Below, in pieces: positions 1 to 18,533 of a DNA stretch of 51,863 bases. The stretch comes from Candidatus Altimarinota bacterium (GTDB lineage: Bacteria; Patescibacteriota; Gracilibacteria; JAHISY01): assembly GCA_021735425.1 (NCBI GenBank), contig JAIPGZ010000008.1, positions 1 to 51,863 on the forward strand, written 5' to 3'. Below the pieces are notes generated by a model. That model saw only the letters and a program-made list of their open reading frames with translations. It had not been told where the DNA came from and made no database searches. The position numbers and the translations under genes were made by a program. Every line of letters starts with the position of its first letter. Position 1 is the first letter of the stretch.

Positions 1-16
1 AGTTAAATATAAAACT

Positions 17-2230: not shown

Positions 2231-2236
2231 ATCACT

Positions 2237-4912
2237 ATGGCATTACATAAAGATTTCCCAAAAGATAAATTTCAAATTCTAGACCCATCAATAAGATGGT
2301 TTCCTGCGCAAGAAGATTTGAGAAAAGAAGGTTATGAAAAACTTTTGCCTCCTTTTGTTCCTGAATTGCGTGAAAAAGTAGCCGAATGGCGCAGTAGTAA
2401 CTATGAAGGAGCAAGCGAAACATCAAAAGCATTATTGAATTGGTGGTTTAAAGAACCTCATACTATTTATTCGAAAGATGGAACAAGTGTTTCATTTCAA
2501 TATTACTATGCTCAAAGAGAAGCTGTAGAGACTATAATTTGGCTTTATGATGTAGAAAAAGTTTCCAACAAGTATGATCTTATCAAGTTTGATAAATTGG
2601 GAAGAGTAAGCCCAAACATGTTTACTGAAGATTGGTTGCGCTTTGTAATAAAAATGGCAACAGGAAGCGGAAAAACAAAAGTAATGAGCTTGCTTTTAGC
2701 ATGGTCCTATTTCCACAAGCTCTATGAGGAAAACTCTGAATTATCAAAGAATTTTTTGCTCATAACTCCAAATATTATTGTACTAGACAGGATCAAAACA
2801 GATTTTGAGGGCTTAAAAATATTCTATGAAGACCCCATTTTGCCAGACAACGGGTATCATGGTCAAAACTGGCAAGATGATTTTCAAATAAAACTGCATT
2901 TACAGGATGAAGTCGGTACAATTTCAAAATCGGGTAATATCTTTCTAACCAATATTCACAGGGTTTATGAAGGCAATATAAATGAGGCTAGTTTTTCGGA
3001 TGAAGATACCTCTGATTATTTTCTAGGCAACAAGGTTGTAGGCAAAACCAATGATTCAAAAGTAGACTTGGGAGAAATCGTAAGAGATGTTGATGAGCTA
3101 ATGGTAATAAACGACGAAGCCCACCATATTCATGACCCAAAAATGGCATGGTTTAAATCAATTGAGGATATTCACAATCAATTACTTCAAAAAGGCAAAA
3201 AACTAGCTTTACAAATAGACGTAACCGCAACACCAAAAAATAATCGTGGTGAAATATTTGTTCAGACAGTATCAGATTATCCTTTAGTGGAAGCAATTCA
3301 TCAGGGCGTAGTAAAAAACCCTGTTTTACCAGACGAAGCCAGTCAAGCAAAACTACAAGAGAGACAGAGTTCATTATTTGCAGAAAAATACGAGGATTTT
3401 CTTAGATTAGGCGTTGAGGAATGGGATAAAACATACAAAGAATTAGAACCAACTGGAAAAAAATCAATTCTTTTTATCATGACTGATGATACTAAAAATT
3501 GTGATGATGTAGCTGAATTTTTAGAAAAAAACTATCCTCAGCTTAAAGGTGCAGTATTAACCATTCATACGAACAGAAGCGGTGAAATATCTGAAACGAC
3601 TACAGGGAAAAAGGAAAAAGAATTGCAAGAACTAAGAAAAAAAGCAAATGACATAGATAGCATGGAAAGTCCTTACAAAGTAATTGTATCAGTTTTAATG
3701 CTAAAAGAAGGGTGGGATGTAAAAAATGTAACAACAATAGTTGGGTTGCGACCGTATAGTTCCGATTCCAAGGTATTACCAGAGCAAACTTTGGGCAGAG
3801 GTCTTCGCCGCATGTTTTTTGGACAAGATGTTGAGGAGTATGTAAGTGTAATTGGAACTCCTGCATTTATGGAATTTGTAGAATCTATTAAAGCGGAAGG
3901 CGTTGAGTTAGAAAAACGAAAAATGGATCGTTCAGGATCACCAATTACCCCAACAGTTATTGAAGTTGATAACCAAAATGTAAAAAAAGATATAGAAAAT
4001 CTTGATATTGAACTTCCTGTTTTAACACCGCGCATACAACGAGAGTATAAAAATCTTGATTTACTAAATGTATCTGGATTTAAACACGAAAAAATATCTA
4101 TTAAACAGTTTTCTGATGAGGAAAAGAAAGAAATCGTATTTAAGGAAGTCATCGATGATAAAATGCACCACACGACCATCCTAAATAGCACTATGGAACC
4201 AAATTACCAAAGTGTTGTCGGATTTTTTGTGCAAAGAGTAATGAAGGAACTAAGACTATTCGGCTGTTACGACATACTTTTTGGCAAAGTAAAAGAATTT
4301 ATTTCACAGTACTTGTTTATTTCAACAGTAGACCTTAACGATGCAAATATTTTAAGAAATTTATCTGAACTAGAAGCAGTAAAAACCATCGTTGAAACAT
4401 TCAAAAAAGAGATAAACAACCTTACTGTACAAGATGTTGGCGATACAGAAATAAAAAACTTCATCAAAGTAAGTAGTGCAAGACCATTCGTAGTAACAGA
4501 TAAAAAATATTTACTCCCAAAAAAGAGCGTATTCAACAAGATTGTTGGTGATAGTGATTTTGAGCTTGAATTTGCAGATTTTCTTGAGGGTGCTGATGAT
4601 GTTATTTCTTTTGCTAAAAATTACTACGAAATCCACTTCAAAATTGATTATAAAAATGCAAGTGGTGCCATTTCCAGCTATTACCCTGATTTTTTTGTAA
4701 AGACAGACAACAAGACAATTTATATTGTGGAAACAAAAGGACGAGAAGATTTAGACGATATTGAGAAAATAAAAAGATTGGCACAATGGTGCGAGGATGC
4801 AAGCGAAAGACAGAAAAAAATCGCCTACAAAATGCTTTATGTAAAGCAGGAAGAATGGGATAAATACACACCAAAAAGCTTTGCAGAGCTGGTGGCTAAT
4901 TTTAGTAACTAA
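2237..4912 (+). CDS. res: Type III restriction enzyme helicase-nuclease subunit (Res)
   Basis: This is the ATP-dependent restriction subunit that acts with the upstream Mod protein to translocate and cut unmodified DNA. The Walker A motif TGSGKT is at residues 142-147, the DEAH box at 293-296, and superfamily 2 motifs with GWDVKN and an LGRGLRR arginine finger follow. The C-terminus has a PD-(D/E)xK nuclease with PD at 817-818 and ETK at 832-834, as expected for Type III Res. The length of 891 residues is typical and no frame damage is seen. It starts 6 bases after mod, and the next gene starts 2 bases after its stop, so the three genes are probably co-transcribed. Confidence 0.93.
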   Translation: MALHKDFPKDKFQILDPSIRWFPAQEDLRKEGYEKLLPPFVPELREKVAEWRSSNYEGASETSKALLNWWFKEPHTIYSKDGTSVSFQYYYAQREAVETIIWLYDVEKVSNKYDLIKFDKLGRVSPNMFTEDWLRFVIKMATGSGKTKVMSLLLAWSYFHKLYEENSELSKNFLLITPNIIVLDRIKTDFEGLKIFYEDPILPDNGYHGQNWQDDFQIKLHLQDEVGTISKSGNIFLTNIHRVYEGNINEASFSDEDTSDYFLGNKVVGKTNDSKVDLGEIVRDVDELMVINDEAHHIHDPKMAWFKSIEDIHNQLLQKGKKLALQIDVTATPKNNRGEIFVQTVSDYPLVEAIHQGVVKNPVLPDEASQAKLQERQSSLFAEKYEDFLRLGVEEWDKTYKELEPTGKKSILFIMTDDTKNCDDVAEFLEKNYPQLKGAVLTIHTNRSGEISETTTGKKEKELQELRKKANDIDSMESPYKVIVSVLMLKEGWDVKNVTTIVGLRPYSSDSKVLPEQTLGRGLRRMFFGQDVEEYVSVIGTPAFMEFVESIKAEGVELEKRKMDRSGSPITPTVIEVDNQNVKKDIENLDIELPVLTPRIQREYKNLDLLNVSGFKHEKISIKQFSDEEKKEIVFKEVIDDKMHHTTILNSTMEPNYQSVVGFFVQRVMKELRLFGCYDILFGKVKEFISQYLFISTVDLNDANILRNLSELEAVKTIVETFKKEINNLTVQDVGDTEIKNFIKVSSARPFVVTDKKYLLPKKSVFNKIVGDSDFELEFADFLEGADDVISFAKNYYEIHFKIDYKNASGAISSYYPDFFVKTDNKTIYIVETKGREDLDDIEKIKRLAQWCEDASERQKKIAYKMLYVKQEEWDKYTPKSFAELVANFSN

Positions 4913-4914
4913 TT

Positions 4915-7900
4915 ATGACTGACAATAAACAATACAACCGAGGCTCTGAATGGAGAAAATGGGATTTGCACATACACACAAAAGAAACTTCAAAAAATGA
5001 TCAATTTACAAGTGTAGATTTTGAAGCTTTTTGTCTTACATTGTTTAAGAAAGCTTTAGAAAATAAAATCTCCGCCATTGGTATTACTGATTATTTTAGT
5101 ATTGATAATTATTTAAAAATTAAAGAGTTTATTTCGAAAATAGATTCGAACACAAATTTTGAAGATTCAGAGAAGAGTGAAATCAAAAAGATTTTTATAA
5201 TTCCAAATGTTGAACTACGCATGATCCCTGTTACAGACAGGGGGAAACTTGTGAACATTCATTGCTTATTTAATCCAAAATATGTTGAAAATCTAGAAAA
5301 TGATTTTTTTAATTCAATACAATGTACTGGAAATGGACAAAGGTACCAAATGAATAGAAGTGGCATCGTAAAGCTTGGCGCATCTATGGATAGTAGCCTA
5401 ACGACTGATGATACTAAATATCAAAAAGGAGTAGATAATTTCGTAGTTTCTCATGAAAGTTTGCAAAAGCTATGGGATGAAAATAAGTCTTTTAGAGAAA
5501 ATACTATAATTGCTGTAAGTAACTCTAACAGCGATGGGGCATCAGCATTTCAAAAACATTTCGATTTTTTTGAAGGCGTAGAGACAGGAAGCCTTGATGG
5601 ATTAAGAAGATCAATTTATCATCTTTCGCAAGTTATTTTTTCAGGAAATCCAGAAGATAAAGAATATTTTCTTGGCAATAAAGTAGATGACGAAAATATC
5701 GTAAAAATAAAATGTGGCTCTCTAAAACCTTGCATACATGGGTCAGACGCTCACAACGAAGACGATCTATTTAAGCCAGATCAGGATAGATATTGCTGGA
5801 TTAAAGCTGATACAACGTTTGAAGGACTTAAGCAAATTATTTATGAACCAGAAGACAGGGTTTTTATTGGAGAAGAACCACCTGTATTAGGACGTGTAAG
5901 AAGCAACAAAACTAAATATATTCATTCTTTAACGGTAAATAATAAGTCGGGACAAAAAGCAAAAAAAGGCAAATGGTTTGAAAATCTAAATATAGAGTTA
6001 AATTCAGAATTAGTAGCTATCATCGGTAATAAAGGAAGCGGGAAAAGCGCTATTTCAGATATTATTGGTGTTTTAGGAGATACTCACAATGCCGGTGAAA
6101 ATCATAAAAACCTATCATTCCTAAACAACTCAACAAATCAGAAAAAATTCAGACAAAAGGGTTATTCCGATACTTTTGAGGCAAAAATGGAATGGGGAGA
6201 TGGTTTATCTGTGACTGAATCTTTAGACAAGAACATTGATATAACTCAAGCAGAAAAAGTTAAATATCTTCCTCAAAATTATTTTGAATACCTCACGAAT
6301 GATTTAGAAGAAGAAGGGTTTGAAAGCACTTTAAAAAGTGTAATTTTTCTCCATATTCCAGAATCTAATAGATATGAGAAAACAACTTTTGATGAGCTCG
6401 AGAAGTATAAAAGTTCCAGCATTCAAAAGGATTTGCCAATGTTGGAAGGAGATTTAGAAAAATTGTCTACTGAGATAATTGAATTAGAAAAGAAAAATCA
6501 TCCCGATAACAAAAAACGCATAGAGAATCTTTTGGGGGAAAAAGAAAAGGAATTAGCCGAACATGAAAAAAACAAACCCAAAGAGGTTAAAAATCCTTCT
6601 GATGACAAAAATAAAGATGTGGACAAAAAAAAGGATGCAAAAATAAAGGAAATTGAAGATCTGAATAGCAAATTTGCTAAAATTATCATTGATATTGAAG
6701 ATGCGAAAAATAAGAAAAATAAAATTACTTCCGACAAAGAAAATCTCCAACAAATTCATGATGACTTAACAAGATTTGAGGGGCAAATAAAGACTTACAA
6801 AGACGAGAATAAGGAAAAATTTAAGAATTTTGGTTTTGATATTGATGAGCTCATCAAAGTCAAATTTGATTCAACCACCCTAAAAGCAGAAATTGAAAAA
6901 AAGAAGAAAGAGCAAGCAGAGCTCGAAAAAACACTAAAAACACTAAAAGAGATTGAAAGTGAGTATGGTGAAAATAAACAAAGGGCTACTAAAGCTAAAC
7001 AGGCAAGTTTGGTAGTCCAAAAAAATGAAATAGAAGAAAAAATAGGCACACTTAAAAAAGAACTTTCAAAGCCAGAAAGAGAATATCAAGAATATAAAGA
7101 AAAGCTTAAAAATTGGGAAGCTTTAAAAAAAGCAATTGAAGGTGACAAAGTGAATCCAAAAACAACGTTAAAAACCATTTCATTTTATAAAAATGAAAAA
7201 GATTTTATTGAAAAAAATCTTTCGTCAATACTTGAACAAAAAAGAAATGATCGAATTGAAAAAGCTATAGGAATTTTCAAAAAGAAAAAGGAGATTATTG
7301 AACTATATGAAGAATTCAAGAAATCCATTGATGAACAAATTGCAGAAGACAAAGAATTTAAGAAAAAATTCAAAATGGATATAGATGTTTCATTCAAAGA
7401 AGATAAGAGCTTTAGGAAAAATTTTTTAGACTTCATCAATCAAAACAAAGGTGGTACGTTTTACGGAAAAACCAATGGTGATAAACAACTTTCAGAAATT
7501 TTTGATGAAAAAGATTTAACTAATGAAGAAGATATAAAAACAATTCTTCAAACAATCATTGAGTTTCTTGAAACAGACCAACGGCAAGAAGTAAAGGAAG
7601 AAGAGAGAAAAAGAGATATTTCCGATCAAATAAATCAGATTGAGGAATTTTATAAATTTGTATTTTCTTTAGATTATCTAAAACCAAACTATGAGCTAAA
7701 ACTAGACGGCAAACCGTTAGAAAAACTATCGCCAGGCGAAAAAGGCGCTTTACTTCTAGTATTTTACTTGATTATTGACAAGGAAGAAACTCCGCTTGTT
7801 ATTGACCAACCAGAAGATAATCTTGATAACAAAAGTGTTTTTGAAGTTTTAACTCACTTCATAAGATTTGCCAAAAAACGCAGACAAATAATCATTGTTA

Positions 7901-8100
7901 CACATAATCCAAACCTTGCTGTTGGGGCAGATGCGGAACAAATTATTTATGTACATCTTGATAAAAACAACGATTATGAATTCACTTATCAAACTGGTGC
8001 AATTGAAAATCCAATTTTAAACAAGAGAATTGTTGAAATTTTAGAAGGAACACAACCAGCTTTTGATAAAAGAAAGCTTAAATATCTGAGCGAAAAATAA
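4915..8100 (+). CDS. PHP-domain plus SMC-like ATPase, defence-associated
   Basis: The N-terminal part resembles a PHP metal-dependent phosphoesterase, with HIHT at residues 19-22 and SDAH at 277-280. After it come a Walker A motif GNKGSGKS (371-378), a long Lys/Glu-rich coiled coil (roughly 480-900), an ABC-type signature LSPGE (938-942), a Walker B region IDQPEDN (963-969) and an H-loop THN near residue 996. This is the layout of ABC/SMC-like ATPases with an N-terminal PHP domain, which NCBI names TrlF-family; I cannot confirm membership here. It starts 2 bases after res, so it belongs to the same transcription unit. A nucleic-acid-sensing or nuclease role in defence is inferred from context, not shown by the sequence. 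Confidence 0.8.
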   Translation: MTDNKQYNRGSEWRKWDLHIHTKETSKNDQFTSVDFEAFCLTLFKKALENKISAIGITDYFSIDNYLKIKEFISKIDSNTNFEDSEKSEIKKIFIIPNVELRMIPVTDRGKLVNIHCLFNPKYVENLENDFFNSIQCTGNGQRYQMNRSGIVKLGASMDSSLTTDDTKYQKGVDNFVVSHESLQKLWDENKSFRENTIIAVSNSNSDGASAFQKHFDFFEGVETGSLDGLRRSIYHLSQVIFSGNPEDKEYFLGNKVDDENIVKIKCGSLKPCIHGSDAHNEDDLFKPDQDRYCWIKADTTFEGLKQIIYEPEDRVFIGEEPPVLGRVRSNKTKYIHSLTVNNKSGQKAKKGKWFENLNIELNSELVAIIGNKGSGKSAISDIIGVLGDTHNAGENHKNLSFLNNSTNQKKFRQKGYSDTFEAKMEWGDGLSVTESLDKNIDITQAEKVKYLPQNYFEYLTNDLEEEGFESTLKSVIFLHIPESNRYEKTTFDELEKYKSSSIQKDLPMLEGDLEKLSTEIIELEKKNHPDNKKRIENLLGEKEKELAEHEKNKPKEVKNPSDDKNKDVDKKKDAKIKEIEDLNSKFAKIIIDIEDAKNKKNKITSDKENLQQIHDDLTRFEGQIKTYKDENKEKFKNFGFDIDELIKVKFDSTTLKAEIEKKKKEQAELEKTLKTLKEIESEYGENKQRATKAKQASLVVQKNEIEEKIGTLKKELSKPEREYQEYKEKLKNWEALKKAIEGDKVNPKTTLKTISFYKNEKDFIEKNLSSILEQKRNDRIEKAIGIFKKKKEIIELYEEFKKSIDEQIAEDKEFKKKFKMDIDVSFKEDKSFRKNFLDFINQNKGGTFYGKTNGDKQLSEIFDEKDLTNEEDIKTILQTIIEFLETDQRQEVKEEERKRDISDQINQIEEFYKFVFSLDYLKPNYELKLDGKPLEKLSPGEKGALLLVFYLIIDKEETPLVIDQPEDNLDNKSVFEVLTHFIRFAKKRRQIIIVTHNPNLAVGADAEQIIYVHLDKNNDYEFTYQTGAIENPILNKRIVEILEGTQPAFDKRKLKYLSEK

Positions 8101-8184
8101 AGCGATTAAGTTAGGGAGATACACTGACTTCATCGACTCTACACCCTTATCTAAAACTAAAAAATTTAATTTAAACAACCAATT

Positions 8185-9441
8185 ATGAACGAAATAATAT
8201 GTCCACATTGCAAAAAAGCCTTCAAAGTCGATGAGGCTGGTTTTGCTGACATCCTTAAACAAGTTAGGGATCAACAATTTGATAAAGACTTACATGATCG
8301 TTTAGAAATAGCAGAAAGAGAAAAGGCAAGTGCCGTTAAGCTCGCCGAATCAAACCTTAAAAACACCTTGCAAGAGGAATTGGCGAAGAAAGATAAAGAA
8401 TTGGCAGAGTTAAAAGCCGAAAACGATCGCAATCTTGCAGAGCAATTAGCAAAAAAGGAATCCGAGCTTGCCGAAATGAAGTCAAAACTTGATAAAGCAG
8501 AGGTAGAGCAAAAACTCACTGTCGCAGAAGCAGTTAAAAAGATAGAAAAGGAACGAGATGAACTAGCTGGCGACTTGAAAAGCAAAACACATGAAATGCA
8601 GCTTCAGGAAGTTACCTTGAAAGATAAATATGAGATTGAATTGAAATCAAAAGATGAAATGATTGAGCGTTACAAGGATATGAAGTTAAAGCTCAGCACT
8701 AAAATGGTTGGTGAGACTTTAGAACAGCATTGTGAAATCGAATTCAATAGACTACGCGCTACTGCTTTTCAAAACGCCTATTTTGAAAAAGACAATGATG
8801 CAAAATCTGGAAATAAAGGTGATTATATTTATCGTGAAACAGATGAGGCAGGAAACGAAATTATCTCTATCATGTTTGAAATGAAGAATGAGGGAGATGA
8901 AACGGCTACTAAGAAAAAGAATGATGATTTTCTAGCTAAGCTTGATAAAGATCGTACAGAAAAGAAATGTGAATATGCAGTGCTTGTTTCACTCTTGGAG
9001 GCGGACAACGAACTTTACAACACTGGCATTATTGATGTTTCTCACAAACATCCAAAAATGTATGTTATCCGCCCTCAATTTTTCATCCCTATTATAACGC
9101 TTTTACGCAATGCAGCGATGAGCTCACTCAAATACAAAGCCGAGCTGGCGTTAGTTAGAAATCAGAATATAGACATTACGAACTTTGAAGACAATATAAA
9201 TGAATTCAAAGAGGGTTTTGCAAGAAATTTCGATCTCGCTAGTCGTAAATTTAAAACTGCGATTGATGAAATTGACAAGACTATTGATCATCTCCAAAAA
9301 ACGAAAGATGCACTATTATCGTCAGAGAACAATCTTCGGCTTGCTAATAACAAAGCAGAAGACTTAACCATCAAAAAATTAACACGAGGAAATCCAACAA
9401 TGACAGCTAAGTTTGAAGATCTTTCTGATAAGACTGAATAG
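8185..9441 (+). CDS. DUF2130 family nuclease-like protein
   Basis: The protein starts with a CPHC zinc-knuckle half, followed by a long coiled coil (about 35-175) and then the conserved DUF2130 core. The core contains [10 protein letters not shown] and, further on, GDY at 212-214 and EMK at 232-234, a spacing compatible with a PD-(D/E)xK-type nuclease fold. The C-terminal third is helical. It lies 84 bases behind the PHP-ATPase gene in the same direction, so it may be read from the same message or from its own weak promoter in that gap. DUF2130 proteins have no firmly established function. Its place at the end of a restriction operon suggests an accessory defence role, which is inference. Confidence 0.85.
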
Positions 9442-9443
9442 AG

Positions 9444-9500
9444 AGTTTTCGGGAGGGGCAATTCACCCCTTTAGTTCCCCTCTTGCCCCTCCCTCAAACT
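9444..9500 (+). repeat. Constant-loop / variable-stem hairpin, copy A
   Basis: The arms 9444-9461 and 9483-9500 pair at 16 of 18 positions around a 21-base loop that begins TTCACCCC and ends CCCCTC. It starts 2 bases after the stop codon of the DUF2130 gene. The loop matches copy B except at one base, while the stem sequence is different. There is no T-run after the right arm, so it is not a standard intrinsic terminator. Confidence 0.85.
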
Positions 9501-9510
9501 AGAAATAGGT

Positions 9511-9565
9511 GTTTTGGGTGGCGGGCATTCACCCCTTTAATTCCCCTCTGCCCACCACCCAAAAC
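9511..9565 (+). repeat. Constant-loop / variable-stem hairpin, copy B
   Basis: The arms 9511-9527 and 9549-9565 pair at 16 of 17 positions around a 21-base loop of the TTCACCCC...CCCCTC type. It lies 10 bases behind copy A, giving a tandem pair at the end of cassette 1. The outer stem begins GTTTT and ends AAAAC, as in copies C and D. Confidence 0.85.
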
Positions 9566-9629
9566 GGAAAAAGAAATTTGAAAATTTTTAAAACAAACGA
9601 CTATCGTCGGAAAAGAAAAGGAATACATC

Positions 9630-9756
9630 AGCTAACACTGCGTATGCGGTTACGGCTTACTCCGTACCTCCGCAAGCCTCCACCCATATTTGCCAGTGGT
9701 AAGCACTTCGTGCAATTATACCACTGGCAAACATCGCATACACAGAAACGTTAGCC
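9630..9756 (+). other. attC-like recombination site 1
   Basis: The R'' box AGCTAAC (9630-9636) is followed by a single A and the stem arm 9638-9648. The other arm, 9735-9745 (10 of 11 paired), is followed by AAAC and the R' box GTTAGCC (9750-9756). Inside is a perfect 12-bp inner stem starting TTGCCAGTGG and closing with its complement ending CTGGCAA. The expected crossover is between G9750 and T9751. R' of this site is the exact complement of R'' of site 2, as required when two different cassettes are joined. It lies in the 521-base gene-free gap 9442-9962. Confidence 0.85.
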
Positions 9757-9829
9757 GAAATACATTTTTACTATTCCCCTTTTGCCGCTCCGCTTTTCGG
9801 ACTTTAAATAAGGAAGGGGCGAATTGATT
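9756..9829 (+). repeat. Left terminal inverted repeat of cassette 2
   Basis: Bases 9756-9778 are the reverse complement of 12504-12526 with one mismatch (22 of 23). Bases 9817-9829 are the exact reverse complement of 12456-12468 (13 of 13), in the correct nested order. The 38 bases between share only short matches such as CGCTTTTC. Confidence 0.8.
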
Positions 9830-9962
9830 CTTTATTTTTAGGGGGGGGCTGTCTGCCTTCGGCAGCCAGTAAGGATGTTTTCTCCGCTTCGCTCCGAAAA
9901 CTCTTTATTGAAAAAAAAGACCAAAAGTCATACACTTAAAATAATTTGAACTCAAAATAACT

Positions 9963-12089
9963 ATGAAAATTAACCAAATCTTAGACAAAATTGATGCAAA
10001 TCAACTTTTTGTGCCCGCGTTTCAACGAGAGTATGTTTGGAAACGAGATAATGCCAAAGACCTCATTGCTTCATTGATTCGTAAATATCCAACAGGAACA
10101 ATGTTAACGTGGGAAACGAACAATCCACCAGAATTAAAAGGAGTACGACAGTATGATCCGCGCCAAGGTGCAGTACGCATTATTCTTGATGGGCAACAAA
10201 GAATAACAACTCTGTATCTTTTAATAAGAAATGAAATACCACCCTACTATAAAGAATCCGAAATTTTAAAAGACCCTAGAGGGCTCTATGTAAATATAAA
10301 AACCCTTGAATTGCAGTATTACAAGCAGACAATAATGCAATCAGACCCCTATTGGATAAATATAACTGATATTTTCAAAAAAACCGTCCAGAGCATTGAT
10401 TTTATCAAAAACATTGAAGAAAAATACCCTGAACTAGACAGGGCTGAGAAATATAAGATTTTAGACAACTTTAAAGAAATTGAAAATATTCCAGACATTG
10501 ACTTTAAGGAACAGGAGATTCCAGCCAAAGCAAGCCTTAAAGAAGCCATAGACATTTTCTATATCGTTAATGCTAGCGGTGTAAACCTTACTGAAGCGGA
10601 ATTAGCTCTTGCTCAAATTTCAGGATATTGGCCACAAGCGAGAGAAATTTTTAAAAAGAAACTCGAAAAATTAAAAGAGGACGGTTTTGTATTCAAACTC
10701 GACTTCATTATTTACTGCTTACTCGGAGTTCTTCACAACATAGGTTCTGACATGACAAAATTGCATGACCAAAGTAACGAGGAAAGGCTTAAAGAAGCGT
10801 GGAAAAGACTTGATGAAGAAGTTTTAGACTATGTTGTAAATGTTCTTCGCTCTCAGGCGTATATTGACCATTCCGACGAGATAAATTCAGTTTACGCATT
10901 GGTGCCTATTGTCGTTTATGTTTATAAACAGAGAGTAAATGCACTAACAGAAAACGATTTAAAGAAAGTCATAAAATGGTTTTACTACTCTCAAATCAGA
11001 CAAAGATACATCAGCCAGTTACCTCAAAAACTTGATAAAGATATTGGTATTGTCGTACGAGCTGAAAACCCTTTCGACGAACTGCTGTATAACATAAAAC
11101 TTGAGAGGCCTTTGGATATTACGGCGGATGAATTTATCGGAGTCGATGTTCGCAATGCCCTTTTCAGCTTAATGCGCTGGTATTTCAAAAGTAAAAATGC
11201 CATTTGTTTTACTACAGGAAACGGAATCAGGAAAAACATGGGCAAAAAATACTCTCTCGAATGGGATCATATCTTTCCTTATTCAGTGCTTAAAGAAAAC
11301 GGATACAACAGAAATAATCGCCATAAGTACGCTTTGGCTCAAGAAATTACAAATCGAGCGATTTTAACACAAATGGCAAATCGCCGGAAAAGTGCTGAAT
11401 TAGCGGAAAACTACCTTGCAGAAGTAAAACAAAAATTTCCTTCCGCACTGAAACTTCAAGCTGTTCCCGAAGATGAAACTTTATGGAAATTGGAAAACTT
11501 TGAGCAATTCCTTGAAGTCAGAAGAAAAACACTCGCAAAAGAATTGAATCACTTCCTCGAAAATATCACCATAACGGAAGAAGTCGAAATCCAAATTCCG
11601 CTTGATGAGCTTATTTCAGAGGGCGAAAGCGACGAACTGGAATTCAAATCATCTTTACGCTGGAATTATCAAACTGAGCAAGAGGACAAAAAACTCGAAA
11701 CGGTAATTTTGAAATCCATTTCTGCTTTCAGTAACTGGGAAGGTGGGACATTAATAATCGGCGTAAACGACGAGGGTGAAATTTTAGGCTTAGATCACGA
11801 CTATAGAAGTTTGGAAGGAGACAAAGATAAATTTGAATTACATCTTAGAAACTTAATCAACAAAACCTTTGGAAAAGTATTCGCCACAACCGGAATCAGC
11901 ATAAATTTTCAAACAATCAATGAAGCTGAAATTTGCGTAATAAATATTTTCAAGGGAACCAAACCGCTATATTTGGAAATAGCCGATAACAACGGTCAAA
12001 AGTTTGAAAAGTTTTATGTAAGAAGCGGAAATACTTCTCAAGAACTCGGATTAAGCGAAATTAGCGAATATATCAAATCACATTTTTAA
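9963..12089 (+). CDS. DUF262-HNH (GmrSD-like) protein fused to an AlbA_2 domain
   Basis: The N-terminal DUF262 domain shows FQREYVW (20-26) and the DGQQR motif (76-80) that in GmrSD/DndB-like proteins belongs to a ParB-like nucleotide-binding fold. A DUF1524-type HNH nuclease follows, with EWDHIFP starting at residue 433 and an N..A.L..MANR helix after it. The last 150 residues form an AlbA_2 (Schlafen AAA_4-like) domain, with the DELEFKSSLRW motif near residue 555 followed by GGTLIIGV. GmrSD proteins cut modified phage DNA, so a modification-dependent restriction enzyme is likely. The added AlbA_2 domain suggests extra nucleic-acid binding or cleavage. It is the first gene of cassette 2; the neighbour starts 10 bases after its stop. 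Confidence 0.85.
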   Translation: MKINQILDKIDANQLFVPAFQREYVWKRDNAKDLIASLIRKYPTGTMLTWETNNPPELKGVRQYDPRQGAVRIILDGQQRITTLYLLIRNEIPPYYKESEILKDPRGLYVNIKTLELQYYKQTIMQSDPYWINITDIFKKTVQSIDFIKNIEEKYPELDRAEKYKILDNFKEIENIPDIDFKEQEIPAKASLKEAIDIFYIVNASGVNLTEAELALAQISGYWPQAREIFKKKLEKLKEDGFVFKLDFIIYCLLGVLHNIGSDMTKLHDQSNEERLKEAWKRLDEEVLDYVVNVLRSQAYIDHSDEINSVYALVPIVVYVYKQRVNALTENDLKKVIKWFYYSQIRQRYISQLPQKLDKDIGIVVRAENPFDELLYNIKLERPLDITADEFIGVDVRNALFSLMRWYFKSKNAICFTTGNGIRKNMGKKYSLEWDHIFPYSVLKENGYNRNNRHKYALAQEITNRAILTQMANRRKSAELAENYLAEVKQKFPSALKLQAVPEDETLWKLENFEQFLEVRRKTLAKELNHFLENITITEEVEIQIPLDELISEGESDELEFKSSLRWNYQTEQEDKKLETVILKSISAFSNWEGGTLIIGVNDEGEILGLDHDYRSLEGDKDKFELHLRNLINKTFGKVFATTGISINFQTINEAEICVINIFKGTKPLYLEIADNNGQKFEKFYVRSGNTSQELGLSEISEYIKSHF

Positions 12090-12099
12090 CTCACTAAAT

Positions 12100-12402
12100 A
12101 TGGACATTAAAATCACAAATTTGTTTGATAAATTCTTTGAATTTTTGCGTCTTTGGAGCGTTGGGAAAATTCTTGTTACATTATCTCTTTTAACAATCAT
12201 TTTCAGAGAATGGCCATATCCAGAGGCAATAAATTACATCATCGGAATTGGTGTTTTCCATGAACTTTTCGATTTATCTCATAATAGAGTGAGCGATCCA
12301 AGCAGACCAATAACCAAGATACAAGCATTTATGTTTAATATTTTCATGGTGATTTCAATACTTTCAATAGTTGGTATTGTATTGCAATTATTATGGAAAT
12401 AG
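12100..12402 (+). CDS. Small two-helix membrane protein in defence cassette
   Basis: This 100-residue protein has two hydrophobic segments, at about 22-36 and 80-98, with a polar loop between them containing FHELFDLSHNR. I recognise no family. It begins 10 bases after the DUF262-HNH-AlbA gene and ends 2 bases before a conserved-loop hairpin, so it is the last gene of cassette 2. Small membrane partners are common in defence operons as effectors, but nothing in this sequence proves such a role. Codon use is as A+T rich as in the upstream gene. Confidence 0.7.
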   Translation: MDIKITNLFDKFFEFLRLWSVGKILVTLSLLTIIFREWPYPEAINYIIGIGVFHELFDLSHNRVSDPSRPITKIQAFMFNIFMVISILSIVGIVLQLLWK

Positions 12403-12404
12403 GA

Positions 12405-12453
12405 GTTTTGGCTCGGGCAATTCACCCCCGACCCCTCTTGCCCTCGCCAAAAC
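12405..12453 (+). repeat. Constant-loop / variable-stem hairpin, copy C
   Basis: The arms 12405-12420 and 12438-12453 pair at 14 of 16 positions around a 17-base loop reading TTCACCCCCGACCCCTC. It begins 2 bases after the last stop codon of cassette 2. The stem is unrelated to those of copies A and D apart from the GTTTT/AAAAC base and the CAA/TTG loop-closing triplet. Confidence 0.85.
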
Positions 12454-12455
12454 GA

Positions 12456-12526
12456 AATCAATTCGCCCTTTAATAAAATGAGTGAAAAGCGATCGCGACA
12501 ATCGGGAATAGTAAAAATGTACTTCG
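12456..12526 (+). repeat. Right terminal inverted repeat of cassette 2
   Basis: This is the partner of 9756-9829: 12456-12468 pairs with 9817-9829 and 12504-12526 pairs with 9756-9778. It lies just before attC-like site 2. In an excised circle the two repeats would extend the attC hairpin outward on both sides. Confidence 0.8.
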
Positions 12527-12588
12527 TTCGGTCGCTTCGCTCCCTCCGACCACGCTGCGCTCTCGCTTCACTGCGTTACGCTCGGGTC

Positions 12589-12720
12589 GGCTAACACAGC
12601 ATATGCGGTTCAGCTCTTGCAGAGCCTCACCCACATTGCTCGTTCGCTTAGGCGGTTTGCTTCGCAAAAATTATACCGCCACGCTCACTTCGCAACGTCG
12701 CATATGCCGAAACGTTGTGC
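12589..12720 (+). other. attC-like recombination site 2
   Basis: The R'' box GGCTAAC (12589-12595), one A, and the arm 12597-12607 pair with the arm 12699-12709 (10 of 11), followed by AAAC and the R' box GTTGTGC (12714-12720). R'' is the exact complement of R' of site 1, and R' is the exact complement of R'' of site 3. The expected crossover is 12714/12715. It occupies the 520-base gene-free gap 12403-12922, which otherwise holds hairpin C, cassette-end repeats and GC-rich small hairpins. Confidence 0.87.
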
Positions 12721-12724
12721 GACA

Positions 12725-12770
12725 TATTTTTCAATATTTTTTCTCAAATAGAAATTTTGTTGAAGAATTT
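12725..12770 (+). repeat. Left terminal inverted repeat of cassette 3
   Basis: Bases 12725-12743 are the exact reverse complement of 15625-15643 (19 of 19), and 12754-12770 are the exact reverse complement of 15598-15614 (17 of 17), with nearly equal spacers of 10 bases on each side. Confidence 0.9.
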
Positions 12771-12922
12771 AAAAAAGGAATGGAATTTTTATTTTTTATT
12801 ATTAAAGAGGGGGATAAGCGGATATTTTTTGCTCCATACTTCCGCAAAAAATGATTATTTAATTTTAAAGTGGAAAAACTGGAGCTTTTGTTATATTATA
12901 CATATAGATTTTAATTCATAAA

Positions 12923-13912
12923 ATGGTGGTTAATATGGTTACTAAAAATTCAAAACAAATGACTACTGGTAAAGCTTTTGAATATGCTTTGCTTACTGAA
13001 TTTCAGGCAAAACTCAAAGATAAAACTAATGTTGAAGTAATTGAAAATTCTTCTTTTAATATCGCAAAAGGTTGTTTTGAAAATACAACAAAAAATGAGC
13101 AAAGTGATTATTTACTTACTTCTAGTTTTGCAGTTAATTTTTTAATGGATATTGAACCAAGACTTTCAAATGATATTGGTAAAAAAGATATACTTCAGCT
13201 TGAAATATTATCTGACGATCACGGGAAATCAGGAGATGTAAGAGATGTTTTAGCAATAAGGCTTTTGCAAAAATGGGAAATTGGTGTTTCAGCAAAAAAT
13301 AATCACAAAGCAGTAAAACATTCTCGTTTATCACATTTGATTGATTTTGGTGAAAAGTGGTTAGGAGTAAAAGTTTCTAAAGAATATTTTGAAACAATAA
13401 CTCCAATTTTTAAAAATCTAGAAAATTTAAGAAAAGAAAGCAAAGCAACAAAGAAATGGAGCGAATTAGAAGATTATCACACTACAGTATATGTCCCAAT
13501 TTTGGAGGCATTTATTAAAGAACTCAAAAATCTGAACAAAGATAATAAAGATATTCCTTCAAAACTAGTCTCGTATTTGATTGGAAATAAAGATTTTTAC
13601 AAGGTCATTAAAAGTAAAAATACACTAGAAATTCAAGCATACAATATAAATGGAACCTTGAATTTATCTTTTGAGGAAATAGAACCGAAATATAAAACAC
13701 CAAGAGTACCTTTGCCAACAGAAATAATTGATATTAAATTTAAAGAAAATAGTAATACAACCGTTATTGTTACAATGAATAATGATTGGATTTTGTCTTT
13801 TAGAATACACAATGCAAGTTCAAGAATAGAATCATCTCTAAAGTTTGATATAAACCTTTTAAAATCACCAAAAACATTATTCAAAAATACTTTAAATATT
13901 AGCAAGGATTAA
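12923..13912 (+). CDS. HaeIII-type Type II restriction endonuclease
   Basis: The protein resembles the RE_HaeIII family, whose characterised member cuts GGCC. A likely PD-(D/E)xK active site lies in GDVRD (104-108) and EIGVSAK (119-125), followed by NNHKAVKHSRL, a stretch I associate with HaeIII-type enzymes. At 329 residues the length fits the family. The start at 12923 could instead be the second Met at 12935; neither has a clear ribosome-binding site. The cognate C5 methyltransferase begins 2 bases after its stop. The GGCC specificity is inferred from the family and not visible in the sequence. Confidence 0.82.
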   Translation: MVVNMVTKNSKQMTTGKAFEYALLTEFQAKLKDKTNVEVIENSSFNIAKGCFENTTKNEQSDYLLTSSFAVNFLMDIEPRLSNDIGKKDILQLEILSDDHGKSGDVRDVLAIRLLQKWEIGVSAKNNHKAVKHSRLSHLIDFGEKWLGVKVSKEYFETITPIFKNLENLRKESKATKKWSELEDYHTTVYVPILEAFIKELKNLNKDNKDIPSKLVSYLIGNKDFYKVIKSKNTLEIQAYNINGTLNLSFEEIEPKYKTPRVPLPTEIIDIKFKENSNTTVIVTMNNDWILSFRIHNASSRIESSLKFDINLLKSPKTLFKNTLNISKD

Positions 13913-13914
13913 TT

Positions 13915-15000
13915 ATGAAAATAATATCATTATTTACAGGTGCAGGAGGTCTTGATCTTGGCTTTCATCAAGCTGGTTTTGAGACTATTTTTGCAAACGA
14001 ATACGATAAAACTATTTGGAACACTTTTGAGCATAATTTCCCAAATACAAAATTAGACAAAAGAAGCATTGTTGATTTGCCTTCAAGTGATGTTCCAGAT
14101 TCTATTGGAATTATTGGTGGTCCTCCTTGTCAAAGCTGGAGTGAGGCAGGGGCAGGAAGAGGAATAAATGACAAAAGAGGACAACTGTTTTTTGAATATA
14201 TTCGTATTTTAAAAGAAAAAGAACCTTTATTTTTTCTTGCAGAAAATGTTTCAGGAATTTTACTAGAAAGACATAAAGAAGCTTTTGATAATATTTTAAA
14301 AGAATTTAAAGCATTAAATTACAATGTTTCTTATTTTTTATTAGATGCAAATGATTTTGGAGTTCCACAAAATAGAAAAAGGGTAATTATAGTTGGATAC
14401 CATAAAAAAATGAATAAAAAGTTTTCTCCCCCAAAAACAATTTCTCCTAAAAAAACTTTAAAAGATGCAATTTGGGATTTAAGACTTGCAAAACCTGCTA
14501 AAGAAAAAAATTACACAAATGGAAATGAAAAACTTTCTGCACTTAATCATGAATATATGAATGGTGGATTTTCCACTATCTATATGTCAAGAAATCGTGT
14601 AAGGAGTTGGGGGGAACCAAGTTTTACCATTCAAGCAGGAGGTCGTCATGCTCCACTTCATCCACAAGCTCCAAAAATGAAATTTATTGAGCAAAATAAA
14701 AGAATTTTTGTACCAGGAAAAGAAGATTTATACAGAAGACTTTCCGTTCGTGAATGTGCAAGAGTTCAAACTTTTCCTGATGATTTTTTGTTTAAATATG
14801 ACAATGTGGCAGATGGTTATAAAATGATCGGAAATGCTGTTCCTGTTGAATTTGCAAGACAGTTGGCAAGTGTGATTTATAAAGATGTTTCTGAGTATTT
14901 AAAACTTCATCAAATACCGAGATCAGAACTGATAAACAAGAAAAAAGAAGAGAAAGTTTTTGTATCGCAAAAGGTGGAGAAAGATTTTGTAGGAGTTTAA
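13915..15000 (+). CDS. DNA (cytosine-5) methyltransferase, HaeIII-type modification
   Basis: This is a C5-cytosine DNA methyltransferase that protects host DNA from the neighbouring endonuclease. Motif I FTGAGG is at residues 7-12, motif IV PPCQS has the catalytic Cys at 72, motif VI ENV has Glu110, motif VIII QNRKRVIIVG follows, and the C-terminal motifs RECARVQTFPD and IGNAVP are present. A short target-recognition domain matches the compact M.HaeIII class. It starts 2 bases after the endonuclease stop, so the pair is translationally coupled. The last 30 residues are a Lys-rich tail after the core. Confidence 0.95.
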   Translation: MKIISLFTGAGGLDLGFHQAGFETIFANEYDKTIWNTFEHNFPNTKLDKRSIVDLPSSDVPDSIGIIGGPPCQSWSEAGAGRGINDKRGQLFFEYIRILKEKEPLFFLAENVSGILLERHKEAFDNILKEFKALNYNVSYFLLDANDFGVPQNRKRVIIVGYHKKMNKKFSPPKTISPKKTLKDAIWDLRLAKPAKEKNYTNGNEKLSALNHEYMNGGFSTIYMSRNRVRSWGEPSFTIQAGGRHAPLHPQAPKMKFIEQNKRIFVPGKEDLYRRLSVRECARVQTFPDDFLFKYDNVADGYKMIGNAVPVEFARQLASVIYKDVSEYLKLHQIPRSELINKKKEEKVFVSQKVEKDFVGV

Positions 15001-15022: not shown

Positions 15023-15514
15023 ATGGAATTAACTACTTGGATTTTAGGACTTATTAGTGCTTTTCTTGCTGTAAAATGGCAAACATCGGCAAAGGAAAAT
15101 GAGAGTTTAAAACAAAAACTCAATGGTAAAAAAGAAGAACTTTACACTGAATTTGTGAGCTTTTACATGAGCTTGTTAAACGGAAAAAAGAGAAGTGAAG
15201 AAGAATTGCAACAAGCAATGAGAGCTTTTAATGAAAAAATGATTTTAACGGCTTCCAATGAAGTCTTTTTAACATTTGGCGATTTAATGCAATCTTTTTA
15301 CAAATCTAATGGCGAAGATACAATGCAAGGAATTCGCTTAATGGGAGAATTAATTCTCTCCATGAGAAAAGATCTAGGACATAGTGATTGGATGAATAAC
15401 TTGTATTGGTTCGATTCTCTTCGTCCATGGCTAAAAGATGTAGACAAATTTGTTACTGTAAAATACAGAGGAAATAGAAGGCATTACAATAAAACAGTAG
15501 ACCTTGTGAAATAA
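15023..15514 (+). CDS. Membrane-anchored protein of unknown function
   Basis: This 163-residue protein has one N-terminal hydrophobic helix (about 5-18) and a helical body with a conserved-looking MRKDLGHSDW motif near residues 114-123. I have seen similar motifs in small uncharacterised membrane-anchored proteins but cannot name the family. It starts 22 bases after the methyltransferase stop and ends 6 bases before hairpin D, so it is the last gene of cassette 3. Its role beside the restriction pair is unknown. Confidence 0.7.
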   Translation: MELTTWILGLISAFLAVKWQTSAKENESLKQKLNGKKEELYTEFVSFYMSLLNGKKRSEEELQQAMRAFNEKMILTASNEVFLTFGDLMQSFYKSNGEDTMQGIRLMGELILSMRKDLGHSDWMNNLYWFDSLRPWLKDVDKFVTVKYRGNRRHYNKTVDLVK

Positions 15515-15569: not shown

Positions 15570-15597
15570 GAAAAAATAAAAATTTCAAATAATGATA

Positions 15598-15643
15598 AAA
15601 TTCTTCAACAAAATAATAAGGAATGAAAAAATATTGAAAAATA
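15598..15643 (+). repeat. Right terminal inverted repeat of cassette 3
   Basis: This is the partner of 12725-12770. It lies between hairpin D and attC-like site 3 and pairs with the first 55 bases of the cassette in two perfect blocks. Confidence 0.9.
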
Positions 15644-15700
15644 CGCTTCGGGGTCGTTGCACTTGATTTTCTTCCGTTATCACTACAGAAAATCACCCTC

Positions 15701-15797
15701 GCACAACACAGTATATCTGGCTCGCTCCTGCCGTCGCTCGACCCATATTTGCCTCCGCTACGCTACGGCAAACATCAGATATACTGAAACGTTCTAC
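15701..15797 (+). other. attC-like recombination site 3
   Basis: The R'' box GCACAAC (15701-15707), one A, and the arm 15709-15719 pair perfectly over 11 bp with 15776-15786, followed by AAAC and the R' box GTTCTAC (15791-15797). The inner part shares CCCATATTTGCC and GGCAAACATC with site 1. R'' is the exact complement of R' of site 2. The expected crossover is 15791/15792. The 507-base gap 15515-16021 has no credible gene. Confidence 0.88.
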
Positions 15798-16021
15798 GGA
15801 AATCGCTCGCTACGCTCGCTTCCGCCTTTGGCGGATTTCCGCAGAACGGGGCGCGGATTGCATCGCGCTTCGCGCTCTTCATCCTTATTCTGTTTGTCGC
15901 TCGCTACGCTTCGCGACTTCGCAGAACAGCGGATATGCGCTGTTCGCTTCGCTCACTAAATTTATTCTTCACAAAAACTTCGTTTTTTGTTCAGAATAAA
16001 CTTCGCATAATCCGCGCCCCG
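15792..16021 (+). mobile_element. Cassette 4: gene-less, attC-only cassette
   Basis: These 230 bases lie between the crossover points of sites 3 and 4 and contain almost nothing but hairpins. The start, TTCTACGGAAATC, is complementary at 12 of 13 positions to 15834-15846, and with the G of site 3 the match is 13 of 14 to 15834-15847. The remainder is attC-like site 4 with nested stem-loops. The weak open frame across this region has no recognisable product. Confidence 0.6.
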
Positions 16022-16027
16022 TTATAT
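15841..16027 (+). other. attC-like recombination site 4, abutting the yvcK stop codon
   Basis: The R'' box GCAGAAC (15841-15847) runs directly into a perfect 12-bp stem (15848-15859 with 16009-16020), followed by the R' box GTTATAT (16021-16027). Internal hairpins include GAACAGCG/CGCTGTTC and TTTATTCT/AGAATAAA (15961-16000). R'' complements R' of site 3 at 6 of 7 bases. It lacks the A/AAAC spacer and inner motifs of sites 1-3, so it belongs to a different attC type. The crossover 16021/16022 falls exactly at the yvcK stop codon. Confidence 0.72.
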
Positions 16028-16789
16028 AGCAGTAATCATCTGAACAAGTTGCCGATTATTCCAACGTTTAGATTTTTGTGGCAGTAAAACCTCATCAAAC
16101 ATGACACCGAATCTTTTTTGAATTTCGGCGGAATTTTCTCCGCGGCAACCGAATTCACTCGTCGAATTACGGACGAGAATTTTCTTCGCAGAAGATTTCT
16201 GGAAAGCTTGACGAAAATCAGACACTTCGAAATGCACCAATAAACTTCCAAACAAACTCCCCGGCCCCACCACAATCTTATCGGCCTGTTGCAGCAGCTT
16301 AGCAACTTTAGGATTAAGTGAGGCTTTAGGCTGAAGTGAAATTTTTGTAATTTTTTGCTTGGCAAACTTTTTCGGCGGATGATCAAATTTTTCCTCGCCG
16401 CGAATTTCCTCCCCACTCTCGAGCTTCCCAACTAGCTGGGAATTTGAAAACGAAACTGGCAGAACTCTCGCTTCGGCAAAATCTGCAAAAATTCCAAAAG
16501 CTTCCTGAAGACTATTTTCCCGAATTAAGTCGGCCAAAATTAAATTCCCGAAAGCGTGCTTCCCATTCCGCTTTTCGAAAAACTCAGCTATCAATCCAGC
16601 CGTCGCTGACACACATTTCCGGAAATCCCCGACAGCCGGGATACCAAATTGCTGACGCAGAAGCCCACTACTACCGCCATTGTCGAAGACAGTCACGATT
16701 GCAGAAACTTCCACGTCTTTCCTTTTGGAAAGTTCCGCGAGAAGTGGAGAGATACCAGAACCGCCACCGATGAGAATAATCTTTTGCAT
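16022..16789 (-). CDS. yvcK: YvcK/CofD-family protein (gluconeogenesis-factor type)
   Basis: The N-terminus shows GGGSG (residues 8-12), then VTVFDNGGSSG, close to the V(T/A)DDGGSSG of YvcK, and AVGDFRKC, which corresponds to the PGDIRN region. YvcK proteins bind UDP-sugars and affect cell shape and carbon metabolism; CofD relatives transfer 2-phospholactate. At 255 residues it is shorter than typical YvcK (above 300). I use the ATG start; a TTG codon lies just before it. The TAA stop is formed from the bases TTA at 16022-16024, immediately beside the presumed crossover of attC site 4, so the accessory array ends exactly at this gene. The following gene on this strand is 40 bases upstream. 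Confidence 0.8.
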   Translation of the reverse strand: MQKIILIGGGSGISPLLAELSKRKDVEVSAIVTVFDNGGSSGLLRQQFGIPAVGDFRKCVSATAGLIAEFFEKRNGKHAFGNLILADLIRENSLQEAFGIFADFAEARVLPVSFSNSQLVGKLESGEEIRGEEKFDHPPKKFAKQKITKISLQPKASLNPKVAKLLQQADKIVVGPGSLFGSLLVHFEVSDFRQAFQKSSAKKILVRNSTSEFGCRGENSAEIQKRFGVMFDEVLLPQKSKRWNNRQLVQMITAI

Positions 16790-16832: not shown

Positions 16833-18533
16833 TTAAGCGGCTGAATTTTCCTGCTCTTTCAGCGCGATTTTTTCTTGCTCGAGCAGTGAATTCAAAGCTG
16901 TCCGTGTCTTCGGTCCGAAGCTACCCGCTCCGAAATCATCAGCAGAAGCAAGAATTTCTGATTTAATTTGAAAGTCGATGATTGCGTTTTCAGTCGCCTC
17001 GTCAAATTCACCAGAAATTTCTAATTCAGAATAACCGATTTTTTGGAGAATTTTTTGCAACTTCTCAACCTCCTTGTTCGAATCACCAAGGCTCAAACTA
17101 TTTTGAAATTGCGGCGTGTAAGCAACCCAAACCGCCCGATTCCATTCTGGGTTTTGAGGTAATGAAGGAAGTGCCAACAAGTTTTGCTGCAAACTTTTTT
17201 GAAAAGCAGTGAGGGTTTTGGGACCAAAAAATCCTGCCCCATAACTCGTCGAACTAGTGAGTGTGCCGCTTGAAACTTGAAATTCGGTCACCGCAGCAAC
17301 AGTCGCCGCGTCAAAAATATTGGAAATCTCGCCATCAAAAAATCCTAACTCTCGCAAGCCCTCCTGAATTTTCGCAACTTCCTCATCCTCGTCGTCTGGC
17401 GAAAAGGTTTTGGCGGGAATCTTCGCAGCAATCAAATCACCAAATTCGCTATCGCGCTCATCGAGCAAGGTCGCCAGCGCTAAACGCGTCTGAAGTCCGA
17501 AGTAACCCGCTCCGAATTCTTCACGACTAGCGAGCACTCCGTTTTCTTTTTGAAAATTAAAAACGCAATTTTCCATCCGCGCATCATAGATTCCGTTAAT
17601 CTCACATTCGTAAAATCCGGACTCTGTCAGAGCAATTTGCAAATCGCGCACCAATTCACCAAGATCGCCAATCGAAAGTGTTGTTGGGAAGCGAGAGCTC
17701 TCAGCAATGTTTTTTTGAATCACTGCCGCTCCGCTACCAGAGGTCGCGTTGGTCTTCGCGAGTAGAGAAGCTGGAGGCTGCCAACTTCGCTGAAAAACTT
17801 CAGCATTCAAGCTTTCGCGCGTAGTCGGACCGAGTATCCCCGCTCCCGCTGAATCTGCGGAAACGACAATCCGGCGGGCGAGCTGATAACCGAGCAAAGC
17901 TTTCCACGTAGCCTCGTTGAAAAATCCATCCACTGGAGCGCGGAAATAACCATACGTTTTGAGTTCTTCTTGAAGTTTTTGAACTTGATCTCCCGAATCG
18001 CCGATTTTCAAATCCGCAACAAAAACAGCATTCATCGTAGGAAGCGTGAAGCTCTCCGCGATAGTGTGGGATGAAGGATAAACTTTCGCATGAACGGTGC
18101 GAACCCCCCACTGCAAAGCCCGCGCCAAACCCGCCTCTCCTTTTCCCATCCAAACATCGAGCCGGTCATGCGTCGCGATTGCCCGCTCACCCGCCTGGAC
18201 TATGGCTCCACCCCGATCGTGAATCGCGCCAACACCAAGTCCTGGAATTTCGATTTTCATTCCAAAAGGATAACTTTTCGGTGCCGCCAACATTCCCGGA
18301 TAAACTTGCGTGCCATCCGCTCCATTCGTCCCATTGCCGTTTAATTTTTTGTCCGCCTCATAACTTCCACGAAAATAAACCCGCTGATTCGGCAGCGGCG
18401 AGTAATAGGCCGAAATCACAAAAGTCGCGTCGTAGGGTTCGAAGTCAGTAGCAGCGAAACTCGGAGGCATAAAGCCCGCAAAAATTGCGAGTGACAACAA
18501 AGCTCCGAAAAACTTTTGTATTTGTGTTTGCAT
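16833..18533 (-). CDS. Secreted 3D-domain protein with four peptidoglycan-binding repeats
   Basis: A signal peptide (about 1-27, cleavage near SFA-A) is followed by a 3D (three-aspartate, double-psi beta-barrel) domain with AIHDRGGAI and HDRLDVWMGKG, as in MltA/RlpA-like and Rpf-associated proteins. Four PG_binding_1-like repeats follow, each with a D..E(V/E)..LQ..L...G(F/Y) helix pattern and a closing GAG(Y/F)FG..TR/LTAL motif. These repeats attach proteins to peptidoglycan. The likely role is wall remodelling or anchoring outside the cell; lytic activity is not proven. The 566-residue frame is intact and is preceded by an A/T-rich leader of about 75 bases before the next gene. Confidence 0.85.
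   Translation of the reverse strand: MQTQIQKFFGALLSLAIFAGFMPPSFAATDFEPYDATFVISAYYSPLPNQRVYFRGSYEADKKLNGNGTNGADGTQVYPGMLAAPKSYPFGMKIEIPGLGVGAIHDRGGAIVQAGERAIATHDRLDVWMGKGEAGLARALQWGVRTVHAKVYPSSHTIAESFTLPTMNAVFVADLKIGDSGDQVQKLQEELKTYGYFRAPVDGFFNEATWKALLGYQLARRIVVSADSAGAGILGPTTRESLNAEVFQRSWQPPASLLAKTNATSGSGAAVIQKNIAESSRFPTTLSIGDLGELVRDLQIALTESGFYECEINGIYDARMENCVFNFQKENGVLASREEFGAGYFGLQTRLALATLLDERDSEFGDLIAAKIPAKTFSPDDEDEEVAKIQEGLRELGFFDGEISNIFDAATVAAVTEFQVSSGTLTSSTSYGAGFFGPKTLTAFQKSLQQNLLALPSLPQNPEWNRAVWVAYTPQFQNSLSLGDSNKEVEKLQKILQKIGYSELEISGEFDEATENAIIDFQIKSEILASADDFGAGSFGPKTRTALNSLLEQEKIALKEQENSAA

Follow-up and report, generated by a model that had tools for sequence, protein, structure and literature searches.

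The window (the whole stretch of DNA that was analysed, 51,863 nucleotides on contig C17 of a Candidatus Altimarinota genome, here G000) carries a directly evidenced tandem array of four cassettes followed by an intact yvcK-like core gene. The four crossovers are given with their sites below, where a slash within a sequence marks the point of crossover; they put cassettes 2, 3 and 4 at 2964, 3077 and 230 bp, the first being truncated. Genes of the first three cassettes were assigned using Pfam and PADLOC.

1-9750, + strand: cassette 1, 5' end cut by the contig start
17-2230: cassette 1 gene, type III methyltransferase
2237-4912: cassette 1 gene, type III restriction enzyme
4915-8100: cassette 1 gene, SMC/AAA protein with a Ppl-like C-terminus
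8185-9441: cassette 1 gene, DUF2130 protein
9630-9756, + strand: attC site 1, R'' AGCTAAC at 9630-9636, crossover G9750/T9751, R' GTTAGCC
9751-12714, + strand: cassette 2, GmrSD_N/HEC-05-like plus AlbA_2 protein at 9963-12089, small ORF at 12100-12402
12589-12720, + strand: attC site 2, R'' GGCTAAC, crossover G12714/T12715
12715-15791, + strand: cassette 3, HaeIII-type restriction enzyme at 12923-13912, C5 cytosine methyltransferase at 13915-15000, unknown ORF at 15023-15514
15701-15797, + strand: attC site 3, R'' GCACAAC, 11-bp arms paired throughout, crossover G15791/T15792
15792-16021, + strand: cassette 4, 230 bp, no recognised gene, the last cassette of the array
15841-16027, + strand: attC site 4, symmetric type (palindrome 15845-16023), crossover G16021/T16022
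16022-16792, - strand: ORF of the intact yvcK-like core gene (CofD family), ATG at 16789 (gene 16022-16789)
16833-18533, - strand: peptidoglycan-binding repeat protein, adjoining yvcK in G002, G003, G004 and G005; core synteny past the array

Bottom-strand folding gave z-scores of -6.0, -2.25 and -3.3 for sites 1, 2 and 3. The start of each cassette complements the R'' of that same cassette, with own-end scores exceeding those against other cassettes. Site 4 is unlike the first three in being a symmetric palindrome (AAC-GGGGCGCGGATT...AATCCGCGCCCC-GTT) that lacks their A and ARAC spacers. It occurs once in the genome and is absent from five related genomes; the possibility that it is a dispersed inverted-repeat element was ruled out on its single copy. 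A genome search for further copies of the array using the motif GAAACGTT returned other matches that appeared unrelated.

Several side features of these cassettes were recorded. Symmetric attC sites without spacers also occur in two other Patescibacteria arrays, at 139-254 of locus L114 and at 188-339 and 1851-2002 of L209 (array orientation, offsets from intI); the type is thus present twice in L209, and in one array it is found beside ordinary sites. Outside the R boxes, cassettes have long terminal inverted repeats of about 45-100 bp (own-end score 18.8 versus 9.6 for other cassettes), pairing 9751-9800 with 12480-12595, 12715-12780 with 15590-15707, and the cassette start on contig C10 (see below) with 9565-9636 of the window. 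A recurrent hairpin also lies near cassette 3' ends, at 9462, 9528, 12421 and 15537 (+ strand) in the window and in L058, L069, L070, L071, L113, L117, L120, L126, L195 and L203. It has a covarying stem of roughly 12-16 bp, a constant loop TTCACCCC(TAA or TTTAATT)CCCCTC and GTTTT/AAAAC flanks, and no match was found in Rfam.

The border of the array reads CCGCGCCCCG/TTATATAGCAG, where the slash falls between G16021 and T16022. The yvcK identification rests on matches to CofD (2.7e-40) and TIGR01826 YvcK (2.7e-43, under the curated TIGR01826 cut-off), and the TAA stop of the gene is the complement of 16022-16024, which forms the distal chromosomal border. At site 4 the R'' (GCAGAAC) and R' (GTTATAT) are mutually non-complementary, the real pairing partner of R'' being the start of its own cassette, GTTCTACGG at 15791. 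The R' half of site 4 is likely to be yvcK 3'-end sequence. No tRNA target was found at the border, and the search for an RNA family at the array gave a single sub-threshold match only. As for a Pc promoter that would serve the cassettes, consensus scans give poor coverage of promoters in this phylum.

A first-pass annotation had placed the site 4 crossover between G16021 and T16022, and had let the TTA that complements the yvcK stop begin at T16022. Both statements held when the bases were read directly. It had further proposed that site 4 is the distal end of the array, which is supported by the presence of only core genes beyond and by the repetition of the border in relatives; that insertion left yvcK intact, supported by the C-terminus length kept in relatives; and that the R' of site 4 is chromosomal and does not complement its own R'', likewise supported. 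A check for cassettes past yvcK found none: the window runs on with the core genes of relatives (the peptidoglycan-binding protein, pgm, trpB and others). Nor does yvcK travel with the array, being fixed at the locus in G002, G004 and G005.

The integrase side and the yvcK-ruvC locus

The search of G000 for tyrosine recombinases of the Phage_integrase family found two genes. One is a housekeeping Xer adjoining trpS. The second opens contig C10, where intI (236-1096) is followed by ruvC and then greA. Upstream of intI, read in array orientation, is an attI site, GTAAAGTTTAGATAATAACCAG/TTAGCTGAAATATTCC (TTAGCTG after the crossover), whose G/TT joint leads into the start of a cassette. Over about 70 bp this start pairs, as an inverted repeat, with the window's cassette 1 end at a score of 41.5; shuffled controls had a mean of 9.9 (sd 1.7, maximum 18.5), and the ends of other cassettes scored 9.5 and 16.5. 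The same genome thus holds intI together with attI and a matching cassette start. Because of this pairing, C10 and C17 are very likely two sides of one array, an inference made without a joining read. They are separate contigs and cassettes from other contigs may lie between them. The missing 5' end of cassette 1 is probably G000:C10:1-207.

The locus was compared across six genomes of the family. On the yvcK side G001 and G003 were unusable, since the region is missing from the G001 bin and the G003 contig ends inside yvcK. In G005, from a sister genus, the TGA of yvcK overlaps the GTG of ruvC, with no insert and no platform. In G002 the order is ruvC, attI (GTAAAGTTCGGATAAAAACCAG/TTAGACG), a single cassette whose ORF is 287 aa long, and then ATG/TTATGTAAC at the yvcK stop; this genome has kept attI and one cassette and lost intI (L054 1720-2911), and we read the locus as a degraded integron at the same site. 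G004 has an attI-like sequence, GCGCATATTATCGAG/TTAGATG, a 150-aa ORF and then CCCAAACA/TTAGGCG (AAACA/TTAGGCG) at the yvcK stop. Both one-insert remnants thus lie between yvcK and ruvC and stop at the yvcK stop codon. Because these two congeners show the same border, its coincidence with the stop codon is not attributed to chance. Their end sites deviate from the attC consensus, as does site 4. The C-terminus of YvcK varies in length by no more than one or two codons among G000, G002, G004 and G005, and core genes run on past yvcK in the readable relatives.

On the ruvC side the joint could be read in two congeners only, G001 (where intI adjoins ruvC and attI is present) and G002; it is TTTTCAT-RTGRG/TTGATTT, again G/TT. 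G005, without an insert, reads TTTTCACGCGAG/AATTTT (ACGCGAG/AATTTT) straight into yvcK. In G000 ruvC overlaps the intI stop, so this joint is no longer present there. The empty and remnant loci and the attI joints are observed directly. Taken with the ruvC-side G/TT joint, the empty G005 locus and the G002 and G004 remnants at the yvcK stop make it likely that the platform was inserted precisely at the yvcK/ruvC junction. We infer that it entered a G/TTA target, giving G/TT joints on both sides. From sequence alone, an empty attI would be expected to read ..ATAAAAACCAG/TTATRTA.. and a platform-free site CATGTGAG/TTATGT. The first-pass annotation had predicted an empty site in which integrase-proximal sequence is joined directly to the yvcK stop, and as worded this failed: no relative was found with intI and a cassette-free attI joined to that stop. 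The nearest cases are G002, with attI, one cassette and yvcK, and the platform-free G005.

An integrase related to IntI without the I2 helix, and its attC class

The best profile for the C10 integrase was TIGR02249, with 217.7 bits in two stretches (E 2.4e-64), ahead of XerA and XerD and under the NCBIfam cut-off of 265 bits. The best PDB match, by both sequence (3e-45) and fold (4e-17), was Vibrio IntI4, 2a3v; fold was compared using Foldseek on an AlphaFold model with a mean pLDDT of 81. The catalytic residues R147, K172/K175, H236, R239, H262 and Y271 are invariant in the alignment. The IntI-specific insertion, a block of about 50 residues that includes the I2 helix, is absent from the C10 integrase and from about 35 Patescibacteria relatives. 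This absence is seen directly in an alignment that included IntI1 and four phage or viral-contig IntIs, and the I2-bearing region of IntI4 (about residues 210-242) has no counterpart in the C10 protein. One relative, G192, has an unrelated insert in the part of the protein where this block would lie. A search of viral contigs using an IntI1 query returned mostly an IS26 tail.

A TIGR02249 survey of 287 genomes of the phylum gave matches in 39 at 1e-30, with none of the 287 above the cut-off. Relatives at about 46% identity or more occur in Magasanik-, Nomura-, Moran-, Peregrini-, Dojka-, Wolfe-, Gracili-, Falkow- and Kuenenbacteria, among others. In a tree of 65 rows built with the insertion columns left out, the canonical IntIs grouped as a single clade (100/100) within a clan of recombinases lacking the insertion, and this clan was split from Xer at 100/100. 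Whether canonical IntI is nested in the insert-less group or sister to it was not resolved (support 48/32, AU p 0.41). The possibility that the C10 gene is a mere Xer was ruled out by tree, profile, fold and linked arrays.

The sites on the array side of the insert-less integrases were hairpins of the form AAC-(a)-arm...arm-(b)-GTT, with a sharp peak at a=1, b=4 and its diagonal. Scanning for 11-bp arms identified 38 distinct attCs in 20 loci, against 3 expected from shuffles. The left spacer was A in 34 of the 38 and the right spacer AAAC, GAAC or GGAC in 33; a few weaker sites, with spacers such as CAAA and TGCC, are likely to be chance matches. Arms covary directly: own arms pair at 94.3% versus 49.1% across sites, and several positions carry three or four pair types, on which basis we conclude that the arms conserve a fold and not a sequence. 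The arms are unbulged in the three window sites of this type (type A) and in most of the 38. The scan demanded ungapped pairing and bulged sites would have been missed. Reference class 1 integron sites have longer spacers. At least eight further genomes have G/TT joints of the attI type upstream of intI, and the order intI-attI-attC is repeated across many Patescibacteria genomes.

Both cassettes and integrase appear to have moved. The first cassette of G031 matches the cassette 1 start of G000, and that of G044, an apparently recoded genome since TGA codons are the only interruptions of its integrase frame, closely matches the start of window cassette 3; cassettes are thus shared between families. 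Orthologues of intI at 78-80% identity lie beside pdxS in G011 and beside an Xer gene in G037, and the integrase is therefore also mobile. A common platform end downstream of intI was looked for in other families and none was clear.

Other layouts were also observed. In G037 (L059 4410-6127) the I2-less intI overlaps the start of the housekeeping-type Xer gene. Two short IntI-like fragments at G038:C2:97266-97491, one with internal stops, suggest a decayed integrase gene. Insert-less IntI-like recombinases were also seen in Fusibacter, Paenibacillus, Saccharibacillus and Bacteroidota (L230, L249, L241, L244, L265, L238, L253 and L267), where attC-like arrays lie downstream and run in the same direction as the gene, a reversed layout; these had at most 6 sites per locus, with shuffles near 0.

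Proposed mechanism and alternative explanations

Our reading is that the array is probably the distal part of a variant chromosomal integron with an I2-less integrase; its activity, single-strand substrate, the role of the loop and the contiguity of C10 with C17 are inferred. Anatomy and comparison strongly support integron-like working, which remains an inference in that no recombination has been observed. In this model a platform of intI, attI and array would have gone in where two co-directional core genes, yvcK and ruvC, adjoin, giving, in array orientation, ruvC and intI (both antisense), attI, cassettes 1-4 (sense) and yvcK (antisense). Every cassette would join at attI by G/TT recombination. 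Capture of the first would split attI, after which the last cassette would permanently keep the target's right half. This retention is proposed because canonical integron recombination works in this way, and it is supported by the three congeners. Here the right half would be the TTA complement of the yvcK stop, and so yvcK would remain intact and all later arrays would end there. The integrase most likely acts on folded bottom-strand attC hairpins. The asymmetric loop of 1 nt and 4 nt (A and ARAC) beside the R box may mark strand and polarity in place of the bulged bases docked by I2, a role suggested because it is the sole constant asymmetry observed.

The alternative that survives best, itself unlikely, is an ordinary double-strand tyrosine recombinase for which R''-L'' and L'-R' are dimer sites and the hairpin pairing is a by-product. 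It is favoured by the lack of an I2 helix and by the relation of the integrase to XerA as well as to IntI. However, L arms lying tens to more than 100 bases apart covary and do not form one motif, which fits a fold, and the fixed asymmetric loop is retained.

Much less plausible is an attC cluster without its own integrase, with the Xer-like gene on C10 unrelated and a recombinase acting in trans. In its favour are the missing IntI domain of the C10 integrase, the unjoined contigs, and the attI and cassette without intI in G002. Against it, the attI joint on C10 is followed by a cassette start whose pairing partner is the end of window cassette 1; in relatives yvcK, here on C17, adjoins ruvC, which here lies beside intI on C10; the intI-attI-attC order recurs in many Patescibacteria genomes; and the sole other Phage_integrase gene found is the housekeeping Xer by trpS.

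Also very unlikely is an incidental match to the stop codon, with the array ending at site 3 and the palindrome at 15841-16027 being a terminator, or else a small inverted-repeat element, that came to lie next to yvcK: the symmetry of site 4 and its lack of A/ARAC spacers speak for this, but the palindrome is single-copy and absent from five relatives, the cassette start at site 3 is the pairing partner of its R'', the symmetric type occurs in the L114 and L209 arrays (twice in the latter), and in two congeners the end falls on the same base, counted from the yvcK stop.

Relation to known integrons and significance

The preferred reading, a variant chromosomal integron, shares with sedentary chromosomal integrons a divergent intI beside attI, G/TT crossovers, one-direction tandem cassettes, R''-L''-L'-R' hairpin ends and cassettes common to several genomes. 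It is unlike them in that the integrase lacks the IntI-specific insertion, the attC arms, as recovered by an ungapped scan, are unbulged with a 1/4 loop, and multi-gene defence systems and long terminal inverted repeats are present in several cassettes. The integrons of archaea (PMC9668308) are similar in presenting attI and attC arrays in MAGs beyond the usual phyla, whereas archaeal IntIs keep the additional domain that is absent here. XerA, XerC and XerD resemble the C10 protein in length and in a domain layout without the insertion; unlike these, it belongs to a separate clade (100/100), attI/attC arrays are attached, and the genome's own Xer lies elsewhere. The insertion is incompletely conserved in a subgroup of 'integron-like' simple tyrosine recombinases, yet it has been called essential for integron function (PMC8138268); the insert-less members described here differ in carrying arrays.

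IntI is defined by its extra domain (PMC9024848, PMC7790495), which the C10 integrase fails to meet; strict membership by integrase domain is thus unmet. The I2 helix is regarded as the innovation that enabled recombination of folded single-stranded attC, and missing intermediates as an obstacle to studying its origin (PMC7790495). IntegronFinder identifies IntI by an IntI-specific profile (PMC9024848), and for that reason I2-less integrons would probably be missed or listed as integrase-less clusters; a survey of defence in groundwater CPR retained only complete integrons from IntegronFinder (PMC12259885). No description of Patescibacteria integrons, or of integron integrases without the extra domain, was found in the open-access literature searched; preprints and most subscription journals were outside the search, and an earlier report is not excluded.

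A bolder reading, which we hold as tentative and would not favour on present evidence, is a widespread class (in Patescibacteria and perhaps some Bacteroidota and Bacillota) whose integrases never had I2 and recombine unbulged folded attC. These would be intermediates between Xer-like recombinases and canonical IntI, with cassette capture arising before I2.

An I2-less family with attI and attC arrays supplies natural proteins and sites for testing the origin of I2. The locus places an integron with anti-phage defence genes in an ultra-small bacterium, exactly between core genes that are neighbours in relatives, and its yvcK border indicates how a platform may settle between two core genes while breaking neither. 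Since the cassettes consist mainly of restriction systems and pass between families, with a genome of recoded TGA among those involved, they perhaps provide these bacteria with a principal route for exchanging defence genes.
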